Positions 498 to 60,660 of a stretch of DNA of 64,000 nucleotides are shown here, piece after piece. The stretch is from a virus. The stretch is taken from positions 1 to 64,000 of the IMG/VR virus record IMGVR_UViG_3300012944_000024; one strand, written 5' to 3'. The notes under the pieces are model-generated. The model was not told where the DNA came from. It saw nothing but the letters and a program-made list of their open reading frames with translations, and ran no database searches. The translations under genes and the position numbers were made by a program. Every line of letters begins with the position of its first letter. The first letter of the stretch is position 1.

Positions 498-764
498 CTA
501 TGCCTGGGAACCCGGGTTCCCAGCAAAAGGGTCGCGATGGATATGACCAAGCGCGAAGCGCGCAACGTGCTCGCGCACCCGACCCGAGTCGCACTTGCGC
601 CGGAGCGGGAAGGCGACCGCCTTGCAGGCCGGGTGCTCGCAGGAGAGCTCAATCACCTGCTCCTCCCACCGCCCCTCCTCGGCGTCGAAGACGCGCGGCT
701 CGTAGCGCCCCACCACGTGCGGAGCCATGTCGGGCCGGTACTCGAGCTTCTTGTCGTTGCTCAT
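498..764 (-). CDS. Hypothetical protein, 88 aa, ending in a palindrome-encoded tail
   Basis: Begins with MSNDKKLEYRPDMAPHVV and carries a cysteine pair (ELSCEHPACKAV) and a third cysteine (RRKCDSGRV) with several histidines, so it may bind a metal; no family recognised. The start ATG overlaps the stop of the upstream gene as ATGA. The last residues (GNPGSQA) are encoded by the dispersed palindrome at 506-521 plus GCA-TAG, so the repeat has probably replaced or extended the original C-terminus. Confidence 0.75.
   Translation of the reverse strand: MSNDKKLEYRPDMAPHVVGRYEPRVFDAEEGRWEEQVIELSCEHPACKAVAFPLRRKCDSGRVREHVARFALGHIHRDPFAGNPGSQA
506..521. repeat. Dispersed palindrome copy 1
   Basis: Perfect GGGAACCCGGGTTCCC, extended to a 20-bp palindrome at 504-523 (CT...AG flanks). 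It forms the last codons of the 498-764 gene and sits about 17 bases upstream of the start at 489. Confidence 0.95.
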
Positions 765-1054
765 AGCGGCGCCTGCCCCCCCATCGCGTCCCAGTGCTTG
801 TGGTGCTCCTCCGCGCACGGGCGGCAGAGCGGGATGGGGCGGTTCGGATCCTCTCCCTGCCCGTCCCAGGGGTAGGCGGTGCGCGAGGGCTCGAGCTGGA
901 TGTCCTGGTCTCGGCACTGGTAGGTCGCGTCGAGCCCCGCGTGGGTCGCGCAGTGCTGGCAGACCCGTTTCGGCGGACCGAGTAGGAGCTCACGGAACCG
1001 CCGGTGCGCGCCCTCGAAGTCGAGCGGCTGGGAAGCGGGGAGGATCAGGCCCAT
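761..1054 (-). CDS. Small zinc-ribbon-like protein, 97 aa
   Basis: Two cysteine/histidine clusters, VCQHCATHAG and LCRPCAEEHHKHW, about 35 residues apart, look like a four-ligand zinc site. This is common in phage HNH-associated or small DNA-binding proteins, but no HNH core is visible. The ATG at 1054 is preferred over a GTG at 1099 because the small coupled ORF 1045-1134 then fits directly upstream with a 10-base overlap. It overlaps the next gene by ATGA. Confidence 0.7.
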   Translation of the reverse strand: MGLILPASQPLDFEGAHRRFRELLLGPPKRVCQHCATHAGLDATYQCRDQDIQLEPSRTAYPWDGQGEDPNRPIPLCRPCAEEHHKHWDAMGGQAPL

Positions 1055-1134
1055 TCGTCCAGCCACCCGTAGAGCACCCAGCAAAAACACGCCACCCACG
1101 TGCCCACCGCGAACATCCCCATCGGGTCATCCAT
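1045..1134 (-). CDS. Predicted 29-aa membrane peptide
   Basis: The stop of the 1134-1526 gene and this start share a base (TGATG). The peptide begins MDDPMGMFAVG and continues with TWVACFCWVLYGWL, one strongly hydrophobic segment rich in Trp and Cys, then ends DEWA. Tight coupling on both sides and the compact transmembrane pattern favour a real gene; function unknown. Confidence 0.5.
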   Translation of the reverse strand: MDDPMGMFAVGTWVACFCWVLYGWLDEWA

Positions 1135-1526
1135 CACGCGGCCCGCTTGCGCGCCCGCTTGCGCGCCCGCTTGCGCGCGTTGCGGGTGCGGCGATCAAGC
1201 TCCTGCTTTCGCATCGCCCCCTCTGCCCTCCACCTCGGCCCGCTCGTGTGAAACGCCAGCCAACTCACACGATACGTCTTGCCCCCATCCTCATCGGCGC
1301 GCTTCTCGATCGCCCAGGTGCGCGAGCGCATCCGCAGCAGCGCGATCGCGTAGAGGAAGTACTGCGGCTCTCGCTCGCCCTTTCGGAAGCGGTAGTCGAC
1401 CGCGCCCGCGGCGTGCAGCTTGGAGCGCGCGATCCAGATCAGCCACCCCGCGGCCCTCGGGCCCTCGATGCGTACGCGCTGGCGCTGCGCCCAGATCCCC
1501 TGCACGTCGAAACTCGGCGGCTTCAT
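1134..1526 (-). CDS. Hypothetical basic protein, 130 aa
   Basis: Unrecognised. The central part (WLIWIARSKLHAAGAVDYRF) looks folded, and the C-terminus is a run of Arg/Lys repeats (ARKRARKRARKRAA) encoded by a 12-bp DNA repeat at about 1141-1178. The basic tail suggests nucleic-acid binding (inference). It overlaps its upstream neighbour by ATGA at 1523-1526 and the membrane peptide downstream by one base. Confidence 0.75.
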   Translation of the reverse strand: MKPPSFDVQGIWAQRQRVRIEGPRAAGWLIWIARSKLHAAGAVDYRFRKGEREPQYFLYAIALLRMRSRTWAIEKRADEDGGKTYRVSWLAFHTSGPRWRAEGAMRKQELDRRTRNARKRARKRARKRAA

Positions 1527-1792
1527 CGCGGCGCCAATGGAGCGGCGCGAAGCTCAAGACGAATCTCGACAATCTGCTTCTCGAGCGCGACCACCTTGCG
1601 CTCCGCCCCCTCGGCCCTCGCGAGCGCGTCGCGCAGGGCGTCGCTGTAAAAGACGACGAGCGAGGTGATCGCATTGTGCCCGGTCGCGGCGCTGTCGCCG
1701 TGCCGAGAACGGAGCCCGACGCCGACCTGCGCCTCGATCGCCTCGATCGCCGCGCGCACCTGCTCGCCACTCGTCGGCTTCTCGTCTCCCAT
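1523..1792 (-). CDS. Hypothetical coiled-coil protein, 89 aa
   Basis: The second half (ALARAEGAERKVVALEKQIV) has heptad-like spacing typical of a short coiled coil. No family recognised. The start ATG at 1792 has no strong ribosome-binding site but follows GGCATAG by ten bases (see findings). It is translationally coupled to the next gene by ATGA. Confidence 0.7.
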   Translation of the reverse strand: MGDEKPTSGEQVRAAIEAIEAQVGVGLRSRHGDSAATGHNAITSLVVFYSDALRDALARAEGAERKVVALEKQIVEIRLELRAAPLAPR

Positions 1793-1801
1793 GCCCGCCC
1801 G

Positions 1802-1981
1802 CTATGCCTTGTTCTTCGCCACCCACTTGCCGATCTTGCTCTTCGGCTTGACCTTCTGGGGCAGGTGCTTCGTCTTGCCGCGCGACGCGTCGTTGAACTC
1901 GTCGACGACGCCCTGCTCGATCTCCCCGCGCGCGGCTGCGGCGTTCATGTAGCGCTGCTGACTTATGCTTTTATAGGGAAT
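1802..1981 (-). CDS. Small phage protein, 59 aa, probable ATT start
   Basis: Reads PYKSISQQRYMNAAAARGEI, then VVDEFNDASRGKTKHLP and a lysine-rich tail. This pattern (KSxxQQRYMxAAAARG...FxxxxRGKKxLP) is a recurrent small phage protein of unknown role. The family normally begins M-P-[FY]-K-S, and here the codon in front of PYKS is ATT at 1981, with GGAGG eight bases upstream inside the end of the preceding gene. The only ATG in frame (1946) would delete the conserved part. The protein ends GCA-TAG. Confidence 0.65.
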   Translation of the reverse strand: MPYKSISQQRYMNAAAARGEIEQGVVDEFNDASRGKTKHLPQKVKPKSKIGKWVAKNKA

Positions 1982-1985
1982 GGGA

Positions 1986-2857: not shown

Positions 2858-4845
2858 TTCGAGTGCCGGATGATCTGACCCTTGGCGATCCGCGCCATCG
2901 CCCACGCCGCGTGCTTCGGTACGAGCTCGATCCCCACCACCTCATCCCAGCCCGCTTGCAGCGCACCAATGATTTCACTTCCGGCTCCGGAAAACGGTAC
3001 GAGCAGGCGCCTCGGCTTGCCGTCCGCGCGCGGCGGCGGGAGGAGCATGCGGGCGAAGTAGCGACAGAGGTCGATCGGCTTGAGCGTGCTGTGTCCGTTC
3101 TTCGCGCGCCCTTGGCGCGAACCGTCCCGCATGGCACCAACGCCATGCGGGACGGTCTCGAAATTCTCGAGCCCCCGGTCGCGCTCCTCGCGCGAGACCT
3201 TTGATGTGAAGAAGAATCGGCTCGCACCTCCTCGGTCGCCGCGAGCCGTGTCGGTGCTGTCGACGCCTCCGAACATCCCCCCGGGATAGTCGGGTCGGTG
3301 CCTCCCGCCCCCCGACATCCCCGGCCGGTCCCCACTCTGCAAGTCGAGCAGGCGCACCGGGCAGCCCTCGACGCACTCGTACGCGTCGATCGTCTCCTTC
3401 CCATTGACTCCGTAGCCGGCGTCGGGCGTCCCCACCGGGTACGTCCCACGACCATGCATCCCATCCAGCGCGCCTCGGTTCTTGACCCCGTTGCGCTTGA
3501 CCGCGGTCCCCGTCTTGACCACGCGCTCCCCCACCCTCACGCAATCGGGTGCGTGCGATAGCACCACGTTCGCCGGCCACCTCCCCTTCACCTTCTTGCC
3601 CGCGTAGCCGGTGACGTTCTTGGGAGCGATCGAGGCTGGACTCGAACCATCGTTGCCCGCGGGAGCGTTGAACCGTTCAACGCTCCCGATGCGGCTCGCC
3701 TCGATGTCGAGCCCACCCACCCCATGGGTCACCGCGTTGTCCGCGATCGTCCCGCGATGCGGCTTGCTCACCAGCAGCAGGGGCTCGTAGTCAGGGGCTA
3801 AGTCCGAGCTTGCGACCTCTGATGTAACAAGAGCGACCGCAGAAGACGCGAGGGTGAACTCGAGTCCAGCAGCGGCGACGGCGAACGATGCGACCGCAAG
3901 CGAGGCACTCGGCGTCATGCCACGTCCGCTCGTCGCGACCTCGATGATGAGTTCTGGCGTGATCTTCGACAGTGAGGAGTTCAAGGTTCTCAATGCGGTT
4001 GTCAGACTTGATGCCGTTTCGATGGTGAACGTGCTCTCTCGTCTCAAGATCTCGTTCAAGGTGTCGAGCCATGACGACACGATGCTCAAGCTCGTAGGCA
4101 CCGTCGAATCGGACCGCGACGTAGCCATCACTCCGAACAAATCGTCCGGTGAACTGCACTGTTGCACGGCATCCCATAGAACAGAACCGAGCGGTGCGAG
4201 CGCGTCTCGACTTGACGACGAAAGCCTGTCCGCAATTTTCGCAAGTGAGCTCAATTGGCATGCAACTTCCGTCAGCTTGTGAGCCAACGATACCACGATC
4301 CCCTTCAGATCGAGCGGCTTCTGGACCATCTCGAGTATTTCCCACGCCGGCTTGAGCGCTGTCCCCTGCCCATCCCACCGCCTCGCCTCTTCTGAGATCG
4401 CCGCGCCCTTGTCGGTCATCCCATAGTGAGGACCACCCAACGCGGGACTCTGACTCACCACGGAGGTGGCGCGGTCGCGCCACCTCCCCCGCTTCTTGTC
4501 GAGCTCCTTCGCGATGTCGAGCGACTTGGGCCACCCGCTCGCGTAGAGCCACATGCAGACGTCGCACGGCAAAAAGCCCGCGTCCTCCACGTTGACCGCC
4601 ATCCGATGGAACGTCCGCGTGCCGCCGAAGAAGAACGCGAACGCCCCCGGCCTCAGGACCCGCAGCACCTCGACGAACGCGTTGACGCTCGGGACGTCGT
4701 AGTCCCACTTGACCCCGCCGCTGCCGTGCATGAACTCGAGACCGTAGGGCGGGTCGGCGAACGCCGCGTCGAAGCTCTCCGGCTCCATCTCGCGCAGCAC
4801 CCGGCGCACGTCCCCGACGACGATCTCGTACGGGCGACCGCTCAC
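2854..4845 (-). CDS. DNA adenine/cytosine-N4 methyltransferase interrupted by an HNH gene
   Basis: A beta-class amino-methyltransferase: catalytic [10 protein letters not shown] near residue 35, the TALKPA element, [10 protein letters not shown] in the middle, and the AdoMet-binding FSGAGSE near the C-terminus. It would methylate exocyclic amino groups in phage DNA, probably for protection against host restriction. The GTG start overlaps the ParB-like gene stop (GTGA). About 510 bases are inserted after the TALKPA element and carry an HNH gene in another frame. The methyltransferase frame stays open through the insert, giving 663 codons where roughly 480 are expected. The motif [10 protein letters not shown] before the insert and [10 protein letters not shown] after it look like two versions of the same element. 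Whether an active enzyme is made is uncertain. Confidence 0.85.
3791..4261 (-). CDS. HNH homing-type endonuclease nested in methyltransferase gene
   Basis: A 156-aa protein with an N-terminal zinc site ([10 protein letters not shown]...RFCSMGCRA), an HNH core ([12 protein letters not shown], then [20 protein letters not shown]), and a C-terminal second cysteine cluster (CLACGRIV...[10 protein letters not shown]). The paired zinc sites around an HNH fold are typical of phage mobile endonucleases. Its stop lies exactly where methyltransferase homology resumes, so the gene fills the insertion. Base composition is visibly more AT-rich than the neighbours. The insert is too short for a complete group I intron plus ORF. 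Confidence 0.85.
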
Positions 4846-5510
4846 TTGCGCCGCTTGCCGCCGAGCAGCTCGAGCACCACGTCGCCCGTCCCCCGCTTGC
4901 TCGTGCGCGCCTTCTCCTCGAGCTTCTCCTTCACCGCGTCGCGCGTCTTCTTGTCCTTGAACTCGAGCCGCAGGGTCGCGGTCCCCACGATCGTCTCGGT
5001 CTCCTCGGTGATCCTGGGGGGCTCGGAGAACTTCATGTACCGCGCGTAGTCGTCCTCCTCGAACCCGAGCATCTCCTTCTCCTCGGGCAGCACCGGGGAG
5101 GTGTGGGCGATGTCCTCGAGCATCTCGCCGACGAGCTTCGCGATGAACTCTCCCTCCACGTTGTTGAGGGCGATGTTCAAGATCTTCGCCTCCCGATCGA
5201 TGAGGTCGAGCACCACGCACGGCAGCCGGGGGGTCGCGACGTTGTCCTCGATGCAGATCTCCCGCACCGCCTTGACCCGCTGGTGTCCCCCCACGATCAC
5301 CATCGGACCGTGCGCCTTGCTGAAGCGCTGGATGACGAGGTTCTCGAGAAACCCATTCTTCCGGATCCCCTGCTTGAGCGCGTCGAACTTGTAGGGCGAG
5401 ATCGAACGCGGATTGTACGCGGCAGGTTGCAGCTCTTGCACCGCCATCATCACCACTGATCGAACCTCGAACGGTTGCAGCACCTGCGCGACTGTCTTTG
5501 ATCGGTTCAT
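4842..5510 (-). CDS. ParB-like N-terminal domain protein
   Basis: Residues about 15-85 show the ParB/Srx fold signature: [19 protein letters not shown], then GFLENLVI and [11 protein letters not shown]. The C-terminal part is charged and helical ([17 protein letters not shown]), without the helix-turn-helix of a partition ParB. Such proteins often sit beside phage DNA methyltransferases; here the stop overlaps the methyltransferase GTG. The ATG at 5510 overlaps the stop of the HNH gene as ATGA; an ATG four codons upstream (5522) is an alternative. Whether it binds a site or has nuclease/CTPase activity cannot be told from sequence. Confidence 0.85.
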
Positions 5511-5989
5511 ATGTGCACCCATCGAACCCTCGTAACGATCTTGGAGATCGCCCCTTGTCGCACGCCAAACCGTTCGGCAAGCGTCTTACGTGACTCCCCG
5601 GCCTTAGCAGCAGCGCGGATCTCCAACACCTGTTCGTCGGTCAGCTTGGCGAGATGATGCCCAACCCCTGCCTTGCTATGGCGTCGACCCTTCTTCATCG
5701 AATCGTGGACGTTGTCCTTCTGCGTTCCGACGAAGAGATGTTCGGGGTTCACGCACCGCGGAGTATCGCAAGTGTGCAGGACAAGTAACCCAGCCGGCAC
5801 TGGACCCCTATGCATCCACCACGACACCACGTGCGCGCGATTCGACCTGCTGCGCTTCGTACCCGGGATGAATGCGTAGAAGAAACCGTACCCGTCCTTG
5901 TCCAGACCCCCAGTCCAGAGCCAGCACCCGTCACTCTTCTCTACGTGCGTGAAAAACCGGATCCTCGGTTCGATTGTTCTGGGCGCCAC
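5507..5989 (-). CDS. HNH endonuclease with C-terminal helix-turn-helix
   Basis: A 160-aa protein matching the free-standing HNH family with SDGCWLWTGGLDKDGYG, then RAHVVSWWMHRG, LHTCDTPRCVNPEHLFVGT and KDNVHDSMKKGR. The tail (LTDEQVLEIRAAAKAGESR, ERFGVRQGAISKI) is a DNA-binding helix-turn-helix typical of phage homing nucleases. GTG at 5989 is the likely start, nine bases after GGCATAG; no ATG fits. It stands between the resolvase and ParB-like genes and is coupled to the latter by ATGA, as expected for a mobile gene that integrated at a gene junction. Confidence 0.85.
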   Translation of the reverse strand: MAPRTIEPRIRFFTHVEKSDGCWLWTGGLDKDGYGFFYAFIPGTKRSRSNRAHVVSWWMHRGPVPAGLLVLHTCDTPRCVNPEHLFVGTQKDNVHDSMKKGRRHSKAGVGHHLAKLTDEQVLEIRAAAKAGESRKTLAERFGVRQGAISKIVTRVRWVHI

Positions 5990-6006
5990 GCCTCCCCCTA
6001 TGCCCC

Positions 6007-6022
6007 GGGAACCCGGGTTCCC
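6007..6022. repeat. Dispersed palindrome copy 2
   Basis: Perfect 16-bp GGGAACCCGGGTTCCC in the short interval between the stop of the RuvC-like gene (6028) and the start of the HNH gene (5989). It is followed on the minus strand by GGCATAG, the same arrangement as copy 1. Confidence 0.95.
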
Positions 6023-6027
6023 ACCAG

Positions 6028-13984: not shown

Positions 13985-15337
13985 CTATGCCGTGAAACGC
14001 ACCCACTCCTCACGCCCGGGGCTCGTCATCACCGCATTGCGAATGAAAGGGATGTCGTCCCCCGGATCGCCCGCATTGCCATGGTCGGCTGCGGGCGGAG
14101 GGACGTAGGGCGCCTCCTGGGTGCGCGTGCGCATCGGCGGGGGGAGCGGGAGGGGGTCGGCCTCGATGATGTAGACCTTCCCGCACGCCGAGCACTTCGG
14201 GTCGCGCATCTTCATCACGTGCGTGCACGGGCCCTGCGGGGTCGGCGCGTTGCACATGACCTCCTCGTCGGGGTCCTCCATCGGCAGCGCGGGCGGGAGG
14301 GCGGGACGTCCGACCTCGGGAACCCGGGTTCCCGCCGGCTCCGCCGCACCCGCGTCCTTCATCGTCTTCCACTCGGCGCGCGCCTTGGCAAAGAACTGCT
14401 CGAACGGCAGCTTGACCAGCACCTGCCGCTCGAGATTGGCCATGTGGGTATTGGGGTCGTGGCGGCGCGCGAGCTCGTCGAAGCTGGGGGGAGGGTCGTG
14501 GACGATGAGCTTCTCGATCATCGGGGTCATCCGGATCTGCTCCATCCGGATCGCGTCGTACTTTTTGTCGAACGCGATCCCCTCGGCTGGGTTGTGCTCG
14601 AGCTGGATCGCGTACGGGTACTTGGCGATGTTGCCGCGCTCGCCGATCGCCTTGCGCGCGTGCGCGATGACCTCCTGGATCTTCAGGCCGACCAGGTTGG
14701 GTTCGATCGCCACCTGGATCCCCTTGGTGGGCTCGGCGTTGTCGACGGCCGCGAACGCGTACTCGAGCTTCGCCTTGCTGTCCTGCCTGTAGGCGACGTT
14801 CGGCGTGAAACCGCGCTGGTAGACCGGCCCGCCGCGCTCCTTGGGGATGAGGATCAGCTCCCTCTTCTTCTCCTCGCTCATCTTCTTGTCGCCGAAGAGG
14901 CCGCACATCCCGCCCGCGTGCAGGATGACCGTCTTGGATGGGTCGTCGCACTCGTACTTGAAGAGCGGCTCGCGCCAGTCGAGCCGCTTGGCCATGATCT
15001 CGGCGCGGATCCACTCGAGCATCTTGCAGTGCCCGCAGATCTCCGGCGGGCGGTCGCGCACCGTGCGCGTCTCGCGGTCGTAGAAGTTCTGCACCTGCAA
15101 GAGGTCCTCGTCCTCCCAGCAAACGAGCGGGTCGCCCCAGACCTCCACCTTCGCGACTCCCTCGACGTTGCGCCGCACCACCTTGAGAAACCGGTGCCGC
15201 CAAAGCGCCAGGATGGACGCCTGGGTGTGAAACCAGAGCGTGATGGAGTAGGGGTTCTTGTCCTTCCAGCCCTTGAGGTAGTTGCGCTTCCCGCCGCGCG
15301 CGGAGTGGCCTTGAAACTCGTCCCATGTCATCGGCAT
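13985..15337 (-). CDS. Probable ssDNA-binding protein with zinc site (gp32-like role)
   Basis: A 450-aa protein with a basic N-terminus (GGKRNYLKGWKDKNPYSITL) and a Cys/His cluster (ICGHCKMLEWI...CDD...MCGLF). The middle is compatible with an OB-type fold (LVGLKIQEVIAHARKA, PYAIQLEHNPAEGIAFD). A second zinc-like site follows (MCNAPTPQGPCTH...CSACGKV), then an acidic-tail motif GDDIPF near the end, like the DDIPF tip of bacterial SSB. Position beside recombinase and polymerase fits a single-strand-binding role. A palindrome is inserted in the linker before the second zinc site. Identity is inference; the zinc motifs are visible. Confidence 0.6.
   Translation of the reverse strand: MPMTWDEFQGHSARGGKRNYLKGWKDKNPYSITLWFHTQASILALWRHRFLKVVRRNVEGVAKVEVWGDPLVCWEDEDLLQVQNFYDRETRTVRDRPPEICGHCKMLEWIRAEIMAKRLDWREPLFKYECDDPSKTVILHAGGMCGLFGDKKMSEEKKRELILIPKERGGPVYQRGFTPNVAYRQDSKAKLEYAFAAVDNAEPTKGIQVAIEPNLVGLKIQEVIAHARKAIGERGNIAKYPYAIQLEHNPAEGIAFDKKYDAIRMEQIRMTPMIEKLIVHDPPPSFDELARRHDPNTHMANLERQVLVKLPFEQFFAKARAEWKTMKDAGAAEPAGTRVPEVGRPALPPALPMEDPDEEVMCNAPTPQGPCTHVMKMRDPKCSACGKVYIIEADPLPLPPPMRTRTQEAPYVPPPAADHGNAGDPGDDIPFIRNAVMTSPGREEWVRFTA
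14318..14333. repeat. Dispersed palindrome copy 3 (inside gene)
   Basis: Perfect GGGAACCCGGGTTCCC in frame, read as GTRVP in the low-complexity linker of the 450-aa protein. Flanks extend it to CGGG...CCCG. Confidence 0.95.
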
Positions 15338-16391: not shown

Positions 16392-19169
16392 CTATGCCGC
16401 CGTCTCCTTCGCGCGCTCGACCGCCGCGACCAGCTCGGGTGAGACCGCCACGAGCAACCCGATCTCCACCGGCCTATCCCCCGCCCTCATCACCACCGGG
16501 CGCGAACCCGGGTGCTCGCGCAGCACCGCCTTCACCCGCAGCCGCATCTGCGCGTCGGCCCGCTCGTCGCCCGTCTCGGGCAGCTCGACCACGAAGGGTC
16601 CGTCGAGCGCGGCGGTCGCGCTCATCGCGGGAGGCGGGGCGAAGAGATCGGACTGCGCGGCGTTTCTCTTTCGCCTCTGGGAACCCGGGTTCCCAACGAC
16701 CCCGGCGAGCTCGCCCTGCCCGGCCTTGACCGCCTTCTCCCACGTCTTTTTCGGGCGCGTCTTGTCGTACCCGCTCCAGTCGTAGTGGGGGAAGGCGGCG
16801 TCGACGAGCGCGCGCGTCGGCTTCCACACCGCGTCCCAGAGGTAGTGGCGATCGAGCTCGCCCACGTAGTCGGCCGCCGGGATCACCTTCTGCGGGCTCT
16901 CGGTCGCGTCGACCACGACGTACGAGACCCGCGTGCCCTCGTCGACCATCTCGCCGCGCTTCTTGAGCTCGCGCCCCACCCGCACGTGCACCGACTCGGC
17001 CATCGGGGTCCCGTCCTTCTTCACCTTCTGGCTCTTCTCGAACTCGCGCAGCGACTTGCCGAGGGCGGCCGACTGGGCGACCTCCTCGATCGGCAGCGGC
17101 TCGCGGAGCACGTGGTGGAAGTAGCGGTCGACGATCGGGACGAAGTCGCTCGGGTCCTCGCTGCGCTCCTCGAGCAGCTTCTGGATGCACTCGAACTGCA
17201 GCGCGCGCGTCAGCTTGAACGTGTCTCCCCGCTTGTACTCGAACCCTCTTATGTCCGGCTTGCCGCGCGGGGGCGGGAACTGCTCGTGGTGCTTGCCGCA
17301 ATCTCGGCAGGTCATCGTCTTTACGTCGAGCGCACCGGGCTGCTGCTCGCCGTCCTTGACGACGTCGCACGTACAGCTCGCCGTCCCCTTGAAATGTCGA
17401 AAGACGCCCGCGTAGCGCTTCTTCGTCGCCCCCCCGCCACTCTTCTTCACGAAGACCACGCGCTCGTACTCCTTCTCGTAGGCGAGCTCCAGGTGGTTCT
17501 CGACGCACCCGTGCTCGCGAGCGATCCGCGGGTAGAGCTCCTTGTTGCACCACTCGACGAACTCGGCGACCTGCTCGCGCGTGACGTTGCGGAGCATCGC
17601 GGCGTCCGTGTCGCCATAGATCGGATCCATCCCGCGCTCCTGCGCCGCGCTCATCGTCTGGTGGATCAGGTAGACCCCCGTCGTCGAGGTCGACTCCGCG
17701 ACCGCCCGCTTGTGAAACCGCGAGAACACCGAACCGATCACCCCGAACGCGGCGTTCGCAATGACCTTGAACGCCATGCTCATGCGGAACGCCTGCCACC
17801 ACTCGGGGGAGCCAGCAGCCGCCTCCGCCTGCTTCTTGCTCCAGTACTTTCGGAGCTTGCGGACCTCCTTCATGAAGAGCGGCAAGAGACCCGGCACGTC
17901 GGTGCGGAACCCGGCGCGGGTCGCGGGGGCGCGCGAGCAACCCGGCGGGATGGGCCCGTTGATCGGCACGAGCGGCTCGATCGTCTCGGGCGACATGTTC
18001 CACGTCATCTGGATCGACGGGTACATCCCGCTGAAGTCCAGCACGTGTGCGTCCTTGACGATCCCCGTCAGCTTCGGCTCGAGCACGAACGCGCCCGCGA
18101 ACTTCTCGTGCGGCTCGCCCTGCTCCCACACCCGCGTGGGCGCGCGCAGCCCGCGCTCGCCGTAGAGCCGCAAGAGGTACGCGTCGACGTAGCTGGTCGG
18201 GTTGGCGCTCTGCGTGTCCGGGAAGGTCCGAGCGATCTCGCAGATCGCGTCGTTGATGGCGAGGTGGCCGAGCTTCTTCTCGAGCTTCGCGAGCAGCACG
18301 GTGTCGCGCACGCAGTAGCGGAGCATCCGGAGCCGCTCGGGCCCCCCCGCCTCCCACGCCTCCCACGTCTTGCCCGCGTCGAAGTTTCCCTTCCCTTCCT
18401 TCAGATGGATGCGCGCGACGCTCTCGAGCGCGAGGGACTCCTTCTCGTCGCCGCTCTCAGCGGCATTCTTGTTCATCCGTTCGTAGAGGACCATCTGGTC
18501 CATCCAGAGCCACCGGTCGAAGGTCCGGACCTTCGCGCCCAGCGCCTGCGTGCGCAGCTTGACGATCGGGAAGTCGAAGTCGTCGCCGAACCACGCCACC
18601 ACCTGGTCGAACCCGCCGAGCTGCTCCCAGAGCCCCTCGATCAGCTCGCGCTCCGCCTCGTCGCTGTCCTCGCGCAGCACCCGCGCCGATACCACGCGCT
18701 CGTCCTCGTCGACCAGGCTCCAGCACAGCACCCTCGCCTTGCCCCGGCGGGCCACCGCGGGCGGGACCCTGCTGTCGGTCTCGATGTCGAGAAAGACCCG
18801 CCGCGGCTTCTGGATCGTCGCCGGATGGTCGGAGAAGAACCGACGGAACGGATCCACGTCCCCCTCGTAGCTCGCGACGGCGTGCTCCTCGCGCAGCCAC
18901 CTGACGACGTTCGCGCGGTACTCGGGCGCGCGGTAGCGGATGCGCAGGAAGTCCTTCTCGCTCGTGATCCCCGCGACCGCGCTCGCCTCGCGCAGCTGCC
19001 GCAGCTCCGTCGGCTGGATCTCGCCGTGCTTGTGGAAGCTCGACCAGTCCGCGGGACGCCGATGCGCCCCGAGTTTCCCTGCGTCGTCGCGAAAGAGAAG
19101 GACCAGCTCGGAGCCGTCGACGAACCCGTTGACGTAGGCGCGATCGGGCATACGGATCGTGAGGAGCAT
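16392..19169 (-). CDS. Family B DNA polymerase
   Basis: A 925-aa polymerase with proofreading and synthesis domains. ExoI is FLDIETDS (about residue 126), ExoII AWFGDDFDFPIV (about 195), ExoIII YCVRDTVLL (about 290). Polymerase motif A is DFSGMYPSIQ, motif B KVIANAAFGVIGS and motif C YGDTDAAM. An added Cys-rich insert (SCTCDVV...CRDCGKHHEQF) lies between motif C and the thumb. The C-terminal linker contains palindrome copy 4, then AAQSDLF and a short tail. It replicates phage DNA. ATG at 19169 has GAGG six bases upstream. Confidence 0.95.
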   Translation of the reverse strand: MLLTIRMPDRAYVNGFVDGSELVLLFRDDAGKLGAHRRPADWSSFHKHGEIQPTELRQLREASAVAGITSEKDFLRIRYRAPEYRANVVRWLREEHAVASYEGDVDPFRRFFSDHPATIQKPRRVFLDIETDSRVPPAVARRGKARVLCWSLVDEDERVVSARVLREDSDEAERELIEGLWEQLGGFDQVVAWFGDDFDFPIVKLRTQALGAKVRTFDRWLWMDQMVLYERMNKNAAESGDEKESLALESVARIHLKEGKGNFDAGKTWEAWEAGGPERLRMLRYCVRDTVLLAKLEKKLGHLAINDAICEIARTFPDTQSANPTSYVDAYLLRLYGERGLRAPTRVWEQGEPHEKFAGAFVLEPKLTGIVKDAHVLDFSGMYPSIQMTWNMSPETIEPLVPINGPIPPGCSRAPATRAGFRTDVPGLLPLFMKEVRKLRKYWSKKQAEAAAGSPEWWQAFRMSMAFKVIANAAFGVIGSVFSRFHKRAVAESTSTTGVYLIHQTMSAAQERGMDPIYGDTDAAMLRNVTREQVAEFVEWCNKELYPRIAREHGCVENHLELAYEKEYERVVFVKKSGGGATKKRYAGVFRHFKGTASCTCDVVKDGEQQPGALDVKTMTCRDCGKHHEQFPPPRGKPDIRGFEYKRGDTFKLTRALQFECIQKLLEERSEDPSDFVPIVDRYFHHVLREPLPIEEVAQSAALGKSLREFEKSQKVKKDGTPMAESVHVRVGRELKKRGEMVDEGTRVSYVVVDATESPQKVIPAADYVGELDRHYLWDAVWKPTRALVDAAFPHYDWSGYDKTRPKKTWEKAVKAGQGELAGVVGNPGSQRRKRNAAQSDLFAPPPAMSATAALDGPFVVELPETGDERADAQMRLRVKAVLREHPGSRPVVMRAGDRPVEIGLLVAVSPELVAAVERAKETAA
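16679..16694. repeat. Dispersed palindrome copy 4 (inside DNA polymerase gene)
   Basis: Perfect GGGAACCCGGGTTCCC, read in frame as GNPGSQ in the linker after the polymerase core. Flanked TGGG...CCCA. Confidence 0.95.
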
Positions 19170-20266: not shown

Positions 20267-21507
20267 TCGCCCGGGACGATCCGCTTCACATCGAGCTTCG
20301 CGATCAGCTCCCCCGCCGCATTGCGACCGATGTGGATGTAGACGCGCACGTCGTTGACCAGCTCCCAGACCCCGTAGGGGACGTCGGCGATCTGCTTGGC
20401 CGGCACGCGCTCCTCGGTGCGGTGGGCGGGCCGCTTGTAGAGCCTGACCATGTGCTTGCCCTCGACCGCCGCGACGGTGATCGCGTTGGTCGGGGCGAGC
20501 TTGCCCCGCGCGAGCGCCTTCTTGGCCTTCTTCTTGTCCCTACCGGGCGTCTGCGAGTGGATCCCCTTGCGACCCGCCTGCTGCTCGAGCTCGCGCCGCC
20601 CCACCTCGGGATTGCTTCGCAACTTGTCGAGCAGCTCCTGCTGGAGCTCCTTGTCGTCGATCGAGATGACCAGACGCATCTTGGTCGGACCGATCTGCCT
20701 CGCTTCGTCTTCACTGAATGCGTGCGCGATCCGCTGCAGGTCTTGCGCGTATTTGCGACCCATCCCGAGCTCCGCTCGCGCAAAGTCCTCAAGCTTCGTG
20801 TACGCGGTCTTCCCATCGGGCGTCTTCCTAGACTTCCAGATCTCATTCACTCCGATCTCGTTTAGCTTCCTGCCGATGAGGAAGATGTTGATCCTCGCGT
20901 TTCGCTGCAGCTCGCGGATCTCGGAGACCGCGAAATCCAAGTCGCCCGCCGGCACCAATTCCGCCACCGCCTCGACAGTCGACTCGTGCACGAGCGCGCG
21001 CGTCCCCGTCTCCTCGGGCGCTTCAACCTCTCCCCCATCTTCGTTCTCGTTCTTACCGTCGCCGGGATTGTCGGCCACCTGGTCGCTCTCGTCGTGATCC
21101 CCGCAGAAGGGGCACGCGTCGAAGTCGTGCATGGTCGAGACCCCACCGCACTGGTCGCACGGCGAGACCGCCTGCTTGGCCTTGGCGAAGTGTTCCTTCA
21201 GCGCCAGGACGAGCTCGGGAAGGGTGGCCTTCTTGCTGACCTTCAGCTTGAGCTTGGCGATCGCCAGCCCAATCGCTGCCGGCTCGAGCTTGCTCTCCTC
21301 GATCCCGTGCACGTACTGGATCTCGTTCGTCGCGGCTGCCGTCTTGATCGGCGTGACCTTACCCATGGCGTCGTCCTTTTCTTCTTCCTGCGCCGGCGGC
21401 GCATCCGTCCCTTCTACCGCACCCGCACCGTGGCATCCGCACTCCTCGATCGGCTTGTCGCAATCGAGGCACCGCGCCGCACCCAACCACTCCGGCATCT
21501 TGCTCAT
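20263..21507 (-). CDS. Zinc-ribbon protein with DNA-binding-like helical domain, 414 aa
   Basis: Two short Cys clusters at the N-terminus (RCLDCDKPIEECGCHG) and a second ribbon near residue 117 (SPCDQCGGV...CPFCGD). An acidic linker follows, then a helical domain (IRELQRNARINIFLIGRKLN, FARAELGMGRKYAQDLQRI) with a helix-turn-helix appearance. A basic stretch (RDKKKAKKALARGK) leads to a C-terminal beta region. Possible replication or transcription accessory; no family name assigned. Confidence 0.7.
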   Translation of the reverse strand: MSKMPEWLGAARCLDCDKPIEECGCHGAGAVEGTDAPPAQEEEKDDAMGKVTPIKTAAATNEIQYVHGIEESKLEPAAIGLAIAKLKLKVSKKATLPELVLALKEHFAKAKQAVSPCDQCGGVSTMHDFDACPFCGDHDESDQVADNPGDGKNENEDGGEVEAPEETGTRALVHESTVEAVAELVPAGDLDFAVSEIRELQRNARINIFLIGRKLNEIGVNEIWKSRKTPDGKTAYTKLEDFARAELGMGRKYAQDLQRIAHAFSEDEARQIGPTKMRLVISIDDKELQQELLDKLRSNPEVGRRELEQQAGRKGIHSQTPGRDKKKAKKALARGKLAPTNAITVAAVEGKHMVRLYKRPAHRTEERVPAKQIADVPYGVWELVNDVRVYIHIGRNAAGELIAKLDVKRIVPGE

Positions 21508-22391: not shown

Positions 22392-24117
22392 TCACCCGGC
22401 TCGGTCGCTCGCCGTCACCATGTCCGCGCCGCACGTGCAGTGGCTGAGAAGCTCGTTGCACTCGACGCAGCAGTTCTCGTTCGGCGCGAGCCAGGCGGGC
22501 AGCCGGGAACCCGGGTTCCCAGCGCCGAGTTGCTCGGGGTCCGACTGCGCGCCGTCGAGCACCAGGGGGTCGACGGCCGCCGCGTTGATCAGCTGGTCAT
22601 CCGTCGGCTCGACGAAGGGGTAGTCGGGCTCCACCGGCGCGGGCTCCGCGACCCCGTCGAGGAAGTGCGAGCGGTCGACCGTCTTGAGGCCCGCGCGCGT
22701 CGCGAGCTCCGCGACGTGCGAGAAGACCAGGTGGTCGCGCGCCCGCGTCGCCGCCACGTACATCAGACGTCGCTCCTCTTCCTGGTCCCCTCGGGGGTGC
22801 GGGAAGATCGTCTCGTTGCACCCGACCACCCAGACGGTCGGCCATTCGAGACCCTTGGATCGATGAATGCTCATCAGGGTGAGTGAGTTGTCGCGCTTGC
22901 CCCGCTTCTGCCGGGCGCTCTCGAGGACGTTCTGGTCGACGTAGTCGAGCAGCTCGCCGACCGTCTTGAACGCCTGAGCGACCCGGAGCAGCTCGCGCAC
23001 GTTCGCGCCGTGCGAGCTGTCGACGCTGTCCTCCGCCCCCTCCTCCTTCTCGATGTACTCGATGTAGTGGGTCTGCCGGACGACTTGGTCGAGCACCTCG
23101 TAGGGCCCGCCATCCATCTCGCCGATCCGGCCGATCAGGTCGACCCACTCGTTGGCGCTCTGCACCTGCCGGCGCTGCAGCCCGGCCTGCTGGGTCGCCT
23201 TCGCGACCACGTCGGCCCAGTAGGCGTCCCGGTTGTTCGGGTCCGCCCGGAGCGCCATGACGCGCTCGACGAACTTCGCCCCGAGGAATCGGAAGGGGGC
23301 GTTGATGCATCGGCGGATCCCGTCGCCGTCCTTGTCTCGGTCGAAGGCGACGCGCAGGTAGGCGAGCAAGTCCTTGACCTCCATCACCCACCACCATCAG
23401 GTTGCGGTGCGAGCTCGCGAGAAATGCCTGTAGCTCCTTCTGCACGCGGGAGTTGTCCTGCGCCTCATCGGTGATGACGTACTCGAACCGGTGCGCCCAG
23501 CTCGCGCGCACGACCTCGTCGTCTCGGAGCAGCCGATGCGCGAAGACGAGCATGTCGTCGAACGTCAGCAGCCCGGCCGACTCGATCAGATCCTGCGACG
23601 TCACCCACGCCTGGATCGCCTTGTCGGACTCGCGCCCGAAGCGATTGCGCGCGAGCCCGCTCGCCTCCTCCGAACCAGGCTCGAACGCGTTGGCCTTGCA
23701 GTGCGCGATGAACTTCCGGACGCGCGCGAGATCGGCGCCGATCCAGTTCATGTGCTTGTACCCGAGGGTCTGCTTGACGAAGCTCTTGGCCTTGTCCTTG
23801 TCGTCGACGATCCACGCGCTCGCCGGGTGCTTCTCCTCGCGCAGGATCGACTGGCAGAGCGCGTGCCACGTGTTGCACTTGACGCCCGAGATCCCCAGGT
23901 GCCGGACGCGCGCGTCCATCTCGTCGGCCGCCTTGCGCGAGAAGGTCAGCATCACGATCCGGTCGGGGTCGACCCCCTCCTCGACCATCGCGCCCACGCG
24001 GTGGACGATCGAAAATGTTTTTCCGCACCCCGCCACTGCCAAAACTTGGCACGGACCGGCGCGGTGCCTGACCACCGCAATCTGCTCGGGGTTGAGCCCC
24101 TGCTCGAATCGGCTCAC
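22392..24117 (-). pseudogene. UvrD/PcrA-type helicase broken by internal deletion and frameshift
   Basis: The N-terminal part (24117 to about 23390) has the Q-motif (GLNPEQIAVVRH), Walker A AVAGCGKT, motif Ib and motif II YVITDEAQD, up to NLMVVGD. The next recognisable element, MEVKDLLAYLRVAF, is in another frame and belongs about 120 residues later in this family. Motifs III and IV are therefore missing. The C-terminal part (to 22392) keeps motifs V and VI (LTLMSIHRSKGLEW, YVAATRARDHLVFS). It ends with a zinc-like tail (CCVECNELLSHCTCG). The junction lies in repetitive GGTGGTGGGTGATGG. The result is either a dead gene, two part proteins, or an assembly deletion. Confidence 0.8.
22505..22520. 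repeat. Dispersed palindrome copy 5 (inside helicase C-terminus)
   Basis: Perfect GGGAACCCGGGTTCCC, read in frame as GNPGSR between the helicase body and its cysteine-rich tail. Confidence 0.95.
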
Positions 24118-24447: not shown

Positions 24448-24975
24448 TTAGCCCGCCTTGGGAACCCGGGCTGTCGGCCCGATTCGCGCGAGAATATCCG
24501 CCGCCAAGCTCGCGATCCGCTCGAGCTTCTCGGTCGTCTTGCCGAGCTGCTCGACGTGCGCGTCGATCGCCCACGCCACCGTCCTCACCACCGCCTCGAC
24601 GTCCTCGAGCAAGAAGTCCTGGTCGGCCGCCGCGGGGGCGACGATGCAGTCGCGCCGCTCGTCGGCGTCGAACGTCCACCGCGCGAACGCCAGCACGCCC
24701 TCCTTGGTCAGCACCAGGGGGGCCTCGCCGGTACCGATCGAGAGGGTCGCGTTGGCCCCCTCGGAGCGTACGCGGATCGCGTAGAAGCGATCGCGCGTGG
24801 CGCCGAGGTTGGGCAGACCGCGCAGGTGCTCACCGTCCAGGGCGTCGACGAGCTTCTCCTCGAGCCTGCGGATCGCGGCGATCACGGTCTCGCGCGCCTC
24901 GTCGCGCGCCGCGATCGTCCGGCCCTGCGCGCCGCGCGCCGCCGCGAGTCGTGCGGCCAGGGAGTCGTCACTCAC
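24448..24975 (-). CDS. Hypothetical protein, 175 aa
   Basis: GTG at 24975 overlaps the upstream stop. A helical N-terminus rich in Ala/Arg (SLAARLAAARGAQGRTIAAR) is followed by a beta region (FYAIRVRSEGANATLSIGTG) and a helical end. The last residues (ARVPKAG) come from a half copy of the palindrome. No family recognised. Confidence 0.7.
   Translation of the reverse strand: MSDDSLAARLAAARGAQGRTIAARDEARETVIAAIRRLEEKLVDALDGEHLRGLPNLGATRDRFYAIRVRSEGANATLSIGTGEAPLVLTKEGVLAFARWTFDADERRDCIVAPAAADQDFLLEDVEAVVRTVAWAIDAHVEQLGKTTEKLERIASLAADILARIGPTARVPKAG
24460..24470. repeat. Half copy of the dispersed palindrome
   Basis: GGGAACCCGGG is intact, but the second arm is replaced by CTGTCG. It overlaps the 3' end of the 24448-24975 gene. 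Confidence 0.8.
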
Positions 24976-25193
24976 GAGGTCACGTCCTTGCGGCCGTAGC
25001 GGACGCTCCGGAGCTCGTCCTTGAGCCCCAAGTCCGAGACCCAGCGGTTGAGGGTGCGGATCGTCACGCCGAACTTCTTGGCCACCTCGGTCATCACGTA
25101 CCCGCACTTCTCGTGCACCTCGACGACGCGACGCTTCGCCTCGCGCGGCTTGCGCCGGACGAGCAAGCCGAACTCTGTATCCCGGAACGCCAT
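24972..25193 (-). CDS. Small helix-turn-helix protein, 73 aa
   Basis: Residues 27-55 form a classical helix-turn-helix (CGYVMTEVAKKFGVTIRTLN, then RWVSDLGLK), of the type used by resolvases and terminase small subunits. The rest is basic. Likely DNA-binding regulator. It is coupled to the next gene through GTGA and lies beside another tandem helix-turn-helix gene. Confidence 0.7.
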   Translation of the reverse strand: MAFRDTEFGLLVRRKPREAKRRVVEVHEKCGYVMTEVAKKFGVTIRTLNRWVSDLGLKDELRSVRYGRKDVTS

Positions 25194-25208
25194 TCTCGAT
25201 GCTCCAGT

Positions 25209-27431: not shown

Positions 27432-27680
27432 TCAGCCTCCGTCCGTGTCGTCCTGGGAACCCGGGTTCCCAGCCTCGAGCCCCAGGATCCGGACCGCCTT
27501 GAGGAAGTCGCGCACGAGCAACTCGCTGCGCGCGATCGCCCGCTTCAGCTCGACGGCGATCTTCCACGCCTTGTCCCAGTCGCTCTCGGCGTGCGCGAGC
27601 TGCAGATCCTTCTCACACCGCAGCACCTGGCGGAACGAGCGCGTCATGTCCGCGCCGATCTTCTTCGCAGTGCGCGCCAT
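27432..27680 (-). CDS. Hypothetical helical protein, 82 aa
   Basis: All-helical (FRQVLRCEKDLQLAHAESDW, AWKIAVELKRAIARSELLVR). The C-terminal tail GNPGSQDDTDGG includes palindrome copy 6, so the repeat was inserted just before the stop. Start ATG shares its A with the upstream TGA. Function unknown. Confidence 0.7.
   Translation of the reverse strand: MARTAKKIGADMTRSFRQVLRCEKDLQLAHAESDWDKAWKIAVELKRAIARSELLVRDFLKAVRILGLEAGNPGSQDDTDGG
27455..27470. repeat. Dispersed palindrome copy 6 (end of gene)
   Basis: Perfect core with CT...AG flanks (27453-27472), read in frame as GNPGSQ near the C-terminus of the 82-aa protein. Confidence 0.95.
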
Positions 27681-34797: not shown

Positions 34798-35352
34798 ATG
34801 AGACGTATCGCCGCCCTCTTCGCCGCCCTCCTTCTGCCCGCCTGCGGGGGGCCGCCCTTCACCACCGCGGATCGGGCCGCCACGCCGCCCAGCGACGAGG
34901 CTGGGAACCCGGGTTCCCAGGTGCCGATCCCCGACCCCGTGGGCGACGCCGCCTCGGCTGGCAACCGGGACGACGCGGGGCTGCCAGACCCCCCCGCCCC
35001 CCTCCCCACCTCCCCCACCCCGCCTGGCAGCCCCGAGGCGGGCTCGCCGCCCGTCGACCCACCCGACGCCCCCCCGCCCGCGCGCGAGGCCACAGCGCCC
35101 TCGTGCGGGCCCGGCAACTGCGCGGGCTGCTGCGACAGTACGGGTACGTGCCAGCGGGGAGGGTCCGACACCGCCTGCGGGGCGTCGGGCAACGCGTGCG
35201 GAGATTGTGCCCCTTTGACGTGCCTCTCGGGCGCGTGCGTGGGGGCTACGTGCATGCCCGCGCTCTGCCCGGCGTGCAGCAATGGGCTGTCGTGCTGCGC
35301 GGCCGGTGGGTGCGGGTGCGTCGGGGGCGCGGGGCTCTGCGTCGCGAACTAG
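34798..35352 (+). CDS. Cysteine-rich lipoprotein of myxobacterial style
   Basis: A 184-aa protein with a type II signal sequence (MRRIAALFAALLLPAC), so the mature N-terminus would be a lipid-modified Cys at residue 16. A Pro-rich spacer (including palindrome copy 9, read GNPGSQ) leads to a C-terminal domain with more than 15 cysteines in CGPGNCAGCCDSTGTCQRG-like units. Proteins of this style are frequent in myxobacterial genomes (general knowledge), which hints at the host. It is likely surface-exposed and may act in exclusion, lysis or lysogenic conversion. The TAG stop overlaps the TAG of the convergent fibre gene. Confidence 0.75.
   Translation: MRRIAALFAALLLPACGGPPFTTADRAATPPSDEAGNPGSQVPIPDPVGDAASAGNRDDAGLPDPPAPLPTSPTPPGSPEAGSPPVDPPDAPPPAREATAPSCGPGNCAGCCDSTGTCQRGGSDTACGASGNACGDCAPLTCLSGACVGATCMPALCPACSNGLSCCAAGGCGCVGGAGLCVAN
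34903..34918. repeat. Dispersed palindrome copy 9 (inside lipoprotein gene)
   Basis: Perfect core with CT...AG flanks (34901-34920), read on the plus strand as GNPGSQ in the Pro-rich spacer. This shows that the repeat occurs in genes of both strands. Confidence 0.95.
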
Positions 35353-45657: not shown

Positions 45658-45673
45658 GGGAACCCGGGTTCCC
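45658..45673. repeat. Dispersed palindrome copy 10 (intergenic)
   Basis: Perfect core, with symmetry extending three more bases on each side (45655-45676). It lies ten bases downstream of the tape measure stop, between genes. Confidence 0.95.
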
Positions 45674-49290: not shown

Positions 49291-49306
49291 GGGAACCCGG
49301 GTTCCC
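49291..49306. repeat. Dispersed palindrome copy 11 (intergenic)
   Basis: Perfect core eight bases downstream of the stop of the AP2/HNH endonuclease gene, between genes. Confidence 0.95.
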
Positions 49307-55824: not shown

Positions 55825-55828
55825 CGGC

Positions 55829-56265: not shown

Positions 56266-56281
56266 GGGAACCCGGGTTCCC
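56266..56281. repeat. Dispersed palindrome copy 12 (after capsid gene)
   Basis: Perfect core, with symmetry extending three more bases on each side (56263-56284). It starts directly downstream of the major capsid stop (56292-56294), so transcripts of the capsid gene would cross it first. Confidence 0.95.
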
Positions 56282-56291
56282 AGCACTCAGA

Positions 56292-58859: not shown

Positions 58860-58933
58860 GCGTCGATTCCTCCAGGGTTCTCGCGTCGCGTACCCCCGCG
58901 CGCGTCTGCGCGGGGGCTTGTCCTGTCTGGGCT

Positions 58934-58949
58934 GGGAACCCGGGTTCCC
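58934..58949. repeat. Dispersed palindrome copy 13 (intergenic)
   Basis: Perfect core with CT...AG flanks (58932-58951), eleven bases downstream of the stop of the decoration-like gene. Confidence 0.95.
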
Positions 58950-58960
58950 AGGTCGCCCGA

Positions 58961-59755: not shown

Positions 59756-59829
59756 TCGAATCGTCTCCTGGTCGTTGTGACGCGAGGCTAGACCTCAGAG
59801 CTGGCGCTGCGCGAAAAAGCCGTCAGCCT

Positions 59830-60258
59830 TCACAGCTGACCCGACGCAAAATACTCGATCTGCCCCGATCCCTGGACCTCGAGCAGCGTGATCCAGAAGC
59901 CGTCCGGCGCGTCCGCCTCGTGGAGGAAGATCCCATTGCTCGGCAGGACCGCGACGATCGACCCGCCCGCGGGGTTGCGGTAGGTAATGCGGAACTGGAA
60001 GAGCCCCGCCTTGACCCGCATGTAGACCGTGTCGGCCTGGGTGACATCGTCGGTCGCCCCGACCCCGCTGAGCGCGACGAACGCGCTCGGCGAGTTGACG
60101 TTGCGCGTCTTGGCCCCCGTCGAGACGGGCGAGGGCTTTGGGCACGGGGCGCCGAGCTGCCCGAACGGCACGCTCGTCGTCGCGCTCGGGAAGCCGGGCG
60201 CCTCGCACCCCGCGGGGGGCGCCTCGGTGAGCGTGCCGGAGATCTGGACCGTCCCCAC
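59830..60258 (-). CDS. Small structural protein, 142 aa
   Basis: GTG at 60258, four bases after the upstream stop. Strand-rich (TVYMRVKAGLFQFRITYRNP, DGFWITLLEVQGSGQIEYFA), like a head decoration or fibre-domain protein. No family recognised. Confidence 0.65.
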   Translation of the reverse strand: MGTVQISGTLTEAPPAGCEAPGFPSATTSVPFGQLGAPCPKPSPVSTGAKTRNVNSPSAFVALSGVGATDDVTQADTVYMRVKAGLFQFRITYRNPAGGSIVAVLPSNGIFLHEADAPDGFWITLLEVQGSGQIEYFASGQL

Positions 60259-60262
60259 GCGC

Positions 60263-60616
60263 TCACTCGCTCGTGTCGGCGGTCGGCTCGTTGGGGATGT
60301 CGCCCACCGGGCCCCCGTCCTCGACGTCGGAGTTTTTCGCGGGCGCGGCGGTGGAGCCGCCGAGCTTGAAGGGCTTGTGCTTCTGGCCCGCCGGGGTCGT
60401 GCCGATCATGCCGCCGCGATCGCTGGGAGGATCCATGTGCAGGGTCCGGCCGCCGTCGGCAACGCTGTCCGCGTTGAAGTCGGGCGGCCCTGACTTCTGG
60501 GGGCGGTCGGGGCCGCGCTGGTTGGTCATCCCCGCGCTCTTGCCCGCGTCGGAGTTGCCGACCGCGCCGCTCTTGCCGTCGGGGGAAAATGGGTTGGACT
60601 TGCCGTCTGCGTTCAT
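60263..60616 (-). CDS. Disordered head protein with NPF/KPF motifs, 117 aa
   Basis: Gly/Ser/Asp/Lys-rich and probably disordered. Contains KSNPFSPDG at the N-terminus and GQKHKPFKLGG later, motifs shared with the next gene. Possibly a procapsid-targeted internal protein (inference from repeated short motifs and location). Confidence 0.6.
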   Translation of the reverse strand: MNADGKSNPFSPDGKSGAVGNSDAGKSAGMTNQRGPDRPQKSGPPDFNADSVADGGRTLHMDPPSDRGGMIGTTPAGQKHKPFKLGGSTAAPAKNSDVEDGGPVGDIPNEPTADTSE

Positions 60617-60644
60617 GGGGGTGCTCCTCGAACTCGAGTCTACC

Positions 60645-60660
60645 GGGAACCCGGGTTCCC
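60645..60660. repeat. Dispersed palindrome copy 14 (intergenic)
   Basis: Perfect core five bases downstream of the stop of the 60666-60935 gene and about 30 bases upstream of the start at 60616. Confidence 0.95.

Follow-up and report, generated by a model that had tools for sequence, protein, structure and literature searches.

The first 64,000 bases of the phage record IMGVR_UViG_3300012944_000024 (98,407 bases in full; referred to here as G000, with positions 1 to 64,000 as the window) contain 14 exact copies of the 16-bp perfect palindrome GGGAACCCGGGTTCCC, where 0.05 copies would be expected even if up to two mismatches were allowed. This observation, made in a first-pass annotation of the sequence, is real and much larger than was stated there: a dispersed and strongly over-represented perfect palindrome was found in 23 of 29 members of a large, uncultured phage family, with 7 to 27 copies each, and in 17 of these 23 genomes the 16-bp core is private to a single member. 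The proposal of a genome-wide network of putative protein-binding sites is strongly supported by this distribution. With moderate confidence, we interpret the 16-mer as G000's version of a family-wide site network that would be read by the protein encoded at 20263-21507 on the minus strand. It is very likely that a dimeric DNA-binding protein reads the sites, and this ParB/Noc-like protein is the likely reader. No earlier description of such a palindrome network in phages was found in the literature searched, with subscription papers largely outside the search.

The palindrome in G000

All 14 full copies reported previously were confirmed (Table 1), and the whole record holds 20. In the window, the counts of the 16-mer at zero, one, two and three mismatches were 14, 0, 0 and 2, and the full record contains 20 perfect copies, one with a single mismatch and none with two. 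The half copy reported at 24460 is present as GGGAACCCGGGCTGTC, with three mismatches to the 16-mer. The pattern read backwards gave no match in the full G000 record. As previously described, the symmetry reaches 20 or 22 bp in several copies (22 bp at 45658 and 56266). The base preceding a copy is always a pyrimidine and the base following it always a purine, and CT...AG is the most frequent flank, so that the full consensus is a 20-base palindrome, CTGGGAACCCGGGTTCCCAG.

According to our own uncurated gene calls, 11 of the 20 copies are intergenic; ten lie 6-20 bp downstream of a stop codon and four others immediately upstream of one. The copies had been placed in genes of both strands, but 128 of the 131 called genes are on the minus strand. 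A chance origin was ruled out by the expectation given above and by the control phage loci described below, and an assembly or adapter artefact by the flanks, which vary among copies, and by the relatives, which carry different words elsewhere.

Table 1. Palindrome copies and candidate reader proteins in the window
Feature	Position	Strand	Remarks
Copy 1, GGGAACCCGGGTTCCC	506..521	none	20-bp symmetric
Copy 2	6007..6022	none	6 bp past stop codon of resolvase gene 6028-6576(-)
Copy 3	14318..14333	none	within called gene 13985-15337(-)
Copy 4	16679..16694	none	within DNA polymerase gene 16392-19169(-)
Copy 5	22505..22520	none	within helicase gene 22392-23384(-)
Copy 6	27455..27470	none	close to 3' end of 27432-27680(-)
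Copy 7	31877..31892	none	within helicase gene 30727-32181(-)
Copy 8	32736..32751	none	close to 3' end of called gene 32712-32894(-)
Copy 9	34903..34918	none	gap separating called genes
Copy 10	45658..45673	none	22-bp symmetric; 10 bp past stop codon
Copy 11	49291..49306	none	9 bp past stop codon
Copy 12	56266..56281	none	22-bp symmetric; 11 bp past stop codon of major capsid gene
Copy 13	58934..58949	none	12 bp past stop codon
Copy 14	60645..60660	none	6 bp past stop codon
Best candidate reader, group OG48, 414 amino acids	20263..21507	(-)	zinc-ribbon motif, predicted ParB/Noc-type DNA-binding domain, C-terminal beta domain
DNA-binding domain of candidate reader, residues 184-318	20554..20958	(-)	domain model and structure matches
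Rival reader, small helix-turn-helix protein	24972..25193	(-)	follows primase gene; weak Fis/MerR/transposase-type helix-turn-helix matches; 21 of 23 palindrome genomes
ParB_N-domain protein	4842..5522	(-)	adjoins DNA methyltransferase; disfavored as reader

Different words in related phages

Relatives were gathered by alignments of the capsid protein and helicase, which yielded 64 and 12 viral loci, and of the polymerase and primase, which added 5 more records. The family totals refer to those records of which 64 kb or more was examined, 29 in all (G417 and G429 to base 100,000 only); shorter records, whether with a strong palindrome (G437, G438, G443 and G451) or with none (G439, G440, G442 and G447), and the partial sequence G472 were left out.

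The 16-mer of G000 is shared with G001, and another is common to G417, G421, G430 and G476. The closest relative found, G414 (capsid protein, 71%), harbors a different word, TGGAACTCGAGTTCCA, in 24 copies. Further words were found in G416 (CCCAAACCCGGGTTTGGG, 26 copies), G418 (ACCGCACGGCGCCGTGCGGT, 25), G422 (ACGGATGATCGATCATCCGT, 17), G425 (AGATAACACCGGTGTTATCT, 16), G436 (CTTGAGGTCGACCTCAAG, 21) and G475 (ACGGAACCCGGGTTCCGT, 15), whereas G417 and G430 each contain TTGGAAACCCGGGTTTCCAA 18 times and have the same 20-bp word. The half-sites ACGCCGGATC and ACGTCGGATC are found in members whose capsid proteins are 88-90% identical. G473 has only 7 copies, and G433 is the weakest of the 23, with nine copies of TTGGGCGCCCAA and a score of 23. 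No palindrome of such strength was detected in the remaining six of the 29 members (G424, G431, G434, G435, G474 and G428). Three genomes show variant arrangements: in G428 (L225-L228, L249) the dispersed palindrome, around ACGACCAAAAGGCGC and CTTTTTGGTC, is imperfect and its centre is shifted, whereas its relatives have perfect ones; in G420 (L171-L175) the nested palindrome AAATCCAATTGGATCGATCCAATTGGATTT surrounds its 20 sites and the inner ATCCAATTGGAT occurs 43 times; and G427 (L195-L199) harbors a second over-represented palindrome, TGTCTAGACA, in 13 copies alongside its main word.

Markov-resampled sequences (two per genome, for part of the genomes) gave a best score of at most 16.5. A score of 12 or more was reached by none of 18 control phage loci (polymerase matches of less than 30% identity), versus 30 of 55 family loci. 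These numbers cover the loci of 10 kb or longer, 18 of 50 for the controls and 55 of 64 for the family; the average family locus is longer than the average control, and near-copies of one phage are among the family loci.

In IMG/VR, the 16-mer was found in four other records (very near records were possibly omitted by the search), one of which, G001, has seven copies. G001 is a distant relative of G000, with a largely similar, circularly permuted gene order and matches to 47 of 131 proteins, and its copies lie mostly at different junctions from those of G000. Site junctions are in general mostly not shared between relatives. The first-pass annotation had regarded empty syntenic positions in related phages, together with the lack of a binding protein, as evidence against its proposal; the 16-mer is indeed absent from most relatives and the positions mostly differ, but the relatives carry other palindromes. 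The same annotation had pointed to the spacing GAAC-N4-GTTC, which is the core of LexA/DinR operators. This spacing does not hold for the family, since it occurs in 4 of the 23 genomes (G000, G001, G414 and G475), and the others have GATCGATC, CGGCGCCG or further cores. LexA operators were rejected on these grounds.

Exactness, placement and spacing of the sites

In most genomes the copies are all-or-nothing, the counts of perfect, one-mismatch and two-mismatch copies being 24, 0 and 0 in G414, 26, 0 and 0 in G416, and 22, 5 and 1 in G436. Looser words are found in G001 (7, 9 and 4) and G433 (6, 6 and 9, for a 14-mer). Over 20 genomes with 365 copies (uncurated gene calls, with the word length hand-picked for each genome), 238 copies are intergenic, though approximately 84-94% of each genome is called coding. 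The spacing of the copies is more even than uniform chance (p < 0.02) in 15 of these 20 genomes, and evenness beyond chance was not reached in G419, G423, G426, G430 and G433. Several junctions recur. In 9 of 17 genomes a site lies at most 200 bp after the terminase-small-like gene (90961-91539 in G000, named from its position adjoining the large terminase), 8 of 19 have one equally close behind the SbcD-like gene, and six genomes have one beside the capsid gene, at the same junction. Compared to a baseline of 14% per gene on average, this recurrence weighs against wholly random placement. In an oriented consensus of the 20 genomes, neither side of the copies showed a conserved T run, and the family shares no second motif at a constant distance. 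A promoter element at a fixed distance was ruled out, as there is no conserved flank motif.

One explanation for sites near gene ends is that they act as RNA hairpins, serving as terminators or processing sites after stop codons. Palindromes can fold, many copies are near gene ends, and at one Chloroflexota locus with the same word (L019, see below) a copy is followed by a T run. However, the T tract that should follow the hairpin of an intrinsic terminator was not found in the 20 phage genomes, and the would-be loop is identical among copies, which is not demanded by structure alone. In addition, C-opposite-A flanks, which do not pair, are frequent around the copies in G000, and thus recognition as DNA is favored and a paired RNA stem disfavored. 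We consider an RNA role very improbable.

An alternative hypothesis is that the sites form a stoperator-like network, in which a phage repressor would block transcription, providing early or carrier-state silence and phage-specific immunity, as in the Cluster A mycobacteriophages. According to one report (PMC6550527), the stoperators of those phages have a 13-bp core and are phage-specific and genome-wide, with up to 30 sites, mostly in one orientation; another (PMC9283540) describes them as asymmetric and bound by a monomeric immunity repressor. The sites of the present family are likewise short, dispersed and phage-specific, often lie right after stop codons and in gaps, and change their word among relatives, as the former report describes for stoperators. 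However, they are perfect palindromes without orientation, whereas stoperators mostly point one way, and they are not accompanied by a second motif at a fixed distance. Moreover, the phage has its own replication module and a lytic look, and no match to an integrase (PF00589) was found in any of 25 family records, including G000, although integrases of other types or plasmid-like maintenance may be present. Taken together, these observations leave a stoperator-like network possible but rather doubtful.

A candidate reader with a predicted ParB/Noc-type domain

The best candidate reader, the protein encoded at 20263-21507, is present in all 23 palindrome genomes; the search did not find it in G431, G434 or G435, all of which are without a strong palindrome (G434 and G435 being fragments of 73 and 68 kb). 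Its middle domain is variable. The full-length AlphaFold2 model has a low predicted TM-score (pTM) of 0.34 overall, with parts well predicted, and its top structure matches were SopB and ParB (Z 4.5). The middle domain modelled alone from 21 sequences reached a pLDDT (predicted local distance difference test) of 93 and a pTM of 0.80, and its nine best structure matches were all ParB, Noc, Spo0J or KorB (Z 8.7-6.2), with the next unrelated chain at Z 4.7. The nine comprise the M. xanthus ParB structures 7o0n (Z 8.7, root-mean-square deviation 5.6, 111 residues aligned) and 7bnr, the Noc structures 7ng0, 7nfu, 7ol9 and 6y93 (the last with its Noc-binding site, NBS; Z 7.8, 3.9, 99 aligned), ParB 6sdk, Spo0J-parS 4umk and KorB-operator 1r71 (Z 6.2, 2.9, 92 aligned). 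Because one family occupies all of the top structure ranks, a ParB/Noc-type fold was accepted, and the protein is thus predicted, at the level of fold, to contain a ParB-type helix-turn-helix DNA-binding domain. It may work like ParB or Noc, and we do not class it as either.

The Pfam HTH_ParB domain was matched in one of 21 members (E 7.5e-4) and DUF3102 in five, whereas the ParB_N CTPase domain gave no match in the protein itself or among 17 members. A similarity search with two members had no match, and a sequence search of the domain against the PDB returned a single one (E 0.38). In a search for ParA (PF01656) in 15 records other than G000, weak matches were found in one.

Noc acts through many dispersed copies of its NBS sites. 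The phage system resembles Noc/NBS and ParB/parS in the predicted fold of the DNA-binding domain, in a palindrome of about 16 bp composed of two half-sites (16 bp for NBS sites, PMC8429893) and, as for NBS, in many dispersed copies. It differs from them in that the word varies between phages and in that the phage protein carries a zinc-ribbon motif instead of a ParB_N CTPase domain, for which no match was detected. KorB of plasmid RK2, which has a CTPase domain, binds about a dozen operators over the plasmid for repression and partition; it is similar in its ParB-type domain (Z 6.2), but the phage words are far more divergent. The motifs of matS/MatP, SBS/SlmA and RacA are also dispersed palindromes that organize the bacterial chromosome, through proteins of other folds. 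Unlike the phage words, they have one fixed word per species group and are found on chromosomes, not phages.

Possible covariation of candidate readers and words

Within the domain of the candidate reader, the strongest relationships to the half-site were found at columns 160 and 103. Column 160 lies where the last helix starts; of the 10 phages with A as the fifth base, 8 have K, R or H there, against none of 11 others. Column 103 lies where the recognition helix starts, with K or R in 4 of 5 phages that have G as the third half-site base and in none of 16 others. When aligned by eye, column 103 would adjoin ParB residue 173 and column 160 would lie in alpha8; as described in PMC7383237, ParB contacts parS through its recognition helix and through alpha6 and alpha8, and ParB/Noc specificity is set by residues 173, 179, 184 and 201. 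We regard this covariation as a hint, suggestive and not significant. A windowed covariation scan did not peak at the recognition helix. No anomalously similar protein emerged from closest-pair comparisons or from group tests, the presence/absence contrast across genomes singled out no protein, and the primase alignment (18 members) used as a query gave nothing useful.

Several results weigh against the assignment of the 20263-21507 protein as the reader. The protein is also found in G424 and G474, which have no strong palindrome, and in G428, whose palindrome is imperfect. The polymerase, primase and DnaB genes are likewise present in 20 of 20 palindrome genomes, and thus presence alone does not single out the candidate. 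The structural aligner cautions that mostly helical models at Z below about 13 may share only a general arrangement, Foldseek ranks ParB first for the domain without significance (E 0.69), and a profile comparison of the domain with Chloroflexota ParBs had no significant match. The candidate ranked 19th of 45 protein groups in a blind residue-base scan (from which G420, G423, G425 and G432 of one clade were excluded, and in which at most 700 well-filled columns were scanned for alignments of more than 900), and the whole-protein Mantel tests gave p 0.027 for 19 genomes and 0.019 for 21, without correction for the 54 groups. The two columns were also checked in three further members whose words are established (L273 was excluded for its weak word). 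Four of six checks agreed, three of these only through a missing basic residue; the two that failed were L333, with N rather than K or R at column 103, and L340, with A rather than K, R or H at column 160. Finally, what points to a role in organization or silencing is anatomy, and that part of the proposal is less certain.

Other candidate readers

The same network might be read by another small phage helix-turn-helix protein, such as the one encoded at 24972-25193 or its neighbor. Tandem small proteins of this kind (24972-25688 on the minus strand) follow the primase in many members, and their recognition helix is very variable. The small protein occurs in 21 of the 23 palindrome genomes, six genomes have a site no more than 150 bp away from such genes, and the best PDB match of its profile is the chromosome-anchoring RacA (E 1.3e-4). 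However, no covariation with the word was found (p 0.70), the helices differ between G417 and G430 despite their identical 20-bp word, and the profile finds no member in G420 or G476, apart from a weak candidate in G420 seen by eye. These results make such a reader unlikely, and the protein encoded at 20263-21507 is still preferred.

The three binders named in the first-pass annotation are disfavored because their distribution among the genomes does not fit. The ParB_N protein is present in 21 of the 23 palindrome genomes, was not found in G414, which has 24 copies, or in G476, and is present in all six members without a strong palindrome; the double helix-turn-helix protein (25209-25688) is present in just 12 of the 23, and the winged-helix protein (11907-12797) in just one. 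The suggestion that the copies are partition sites survives in part: the ParB-like protein originally named is disfavored, while the best candidate reader is predicted to have a ParB/Noc-type fold.

The word outside the phage family

An 18-base form of the word was found at 32 loci of a genome collection, with at most four copies per locus, in a collection that may not include the host. No many-copy host is among these loci, and of 400 genomes sampled in the phylum to which G006 belongs, just 4 contain the word at all; a highly iterated palindrome borrowed from the host is thus not supported. Nothing found supports the myxobacterial host that had been suggested.

Among the genome matches, multi-copy loci were confined to metagenome-assembled genomes of Chloroflexota, in which the 16-mer lies within parB, right after its stop codon or nearby, beside parA. 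All genomic copies in G005, G006 and G007 (4, 2 and 2) are at the parAB locus, and one of the two in G008 is about 3 kb from parB. Of 11 parB homologues of the same order, eight are accompanied by the word itself, by a form with one mismatch or by the inner 14 bases. The parAB loci with GGGAACCCGGGTTCCC or a near form in or just after parB are L019 (1854-4328), L015, L037, L013, L342-L346 and L349-L351. The Chloroflexota word is likely a parS, different from the canonical one, and these loci suggest that a ParB-type system can use exactly GGGAACCCGGGTTCCC. The match to the phage word may nevertheless be a coincidence, as there are 65,536 possible 16-base palindromes, many operators and 85,000 species.

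It could be proposed on this basis that the phage sites mimic a site of the host chromosome, with a host protein such as a ParB as their reader, given that the same word is the likely parS of some Chloroflexota. However, the genome scan revealed no many-copy host, the G + C content of the Chloroflexota loci is 44-51% compared to 68% for the phage, most relatives use other words, and some match to an operator is unsurprising at the numbers just given. The chance that the sites are host mimics appears slim.

Gene content of the phage

G000 is a tailed phage with its own replication module and a lytic look. Family searches identified a DNA polymerase, primase, DnaB-like helicase, UvsX-like recombinase, SbcC- and SbcD-like proteins and a RuvC-like resolvase, as well as a terminase and proteins of the baseplate and capsid. 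In a similarity search, no known phage was a near match to the first 24 kb. A protein conserved in 18 genomes (21525-22331 on the minus strand) resembles sigma-70 region 2 by eye and has no PHROGs match; in G001, a stretch similar to it begins the called polymerase frame. Two HNH endonuclease frames overlap other genes on the minus strand, 5507-6367 with the resolvase gene (6028-6576) and 3791-4708 with the DNA methyltransferase gene (2854-4845). In G421, a helicase gene of 994 codons (L176, 9954-12938, plus strand) contains an apparent intein, as judged by eye.

Possible function and significance

In the proposed mechanism, a dimer of the 20263-21507 protein would read the two half-sites through its predicted ParB/Noc-type domain, and the bound reader would decorate the whole phage genome every few kilobases. 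Less certainly, this network may pack, segregate or shield replicating phage DNA, as Noc, KorB and ParB do on their replicons, with the blocking of transcription at the sites as a possible by-product or additional role. Joint change of site and reader would account for the fast drift of the word among relatives. A more speculative possibility, which we hold tentatively, is a self-address system, in which a private palindrome and a co-evolving, CTPase-less reader of the ParB/Noc type would let replication, compaction or packaging factors act on the phage's own DNA and not on that of the host or a competitor, with co-infecting relatives driving the change of word.

Site words form a natural series in this family, with a private 16-bp core in 17 of 23 genomes, and come with matching candidate readers of one predicted fold; the family is thereby a test bed for the evolution of DNA-binding specificity beyond the switch from ParB to Noc. 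The palindrome-protein pairs could also be tried as DNA labels, in the manner of ParB/parS and Noc/NBS. For the biology of these phages, our analyses suggest that some lytic-looking phages run a network for chromosome organization or silencing, a role that has rarely been ascribed to them.

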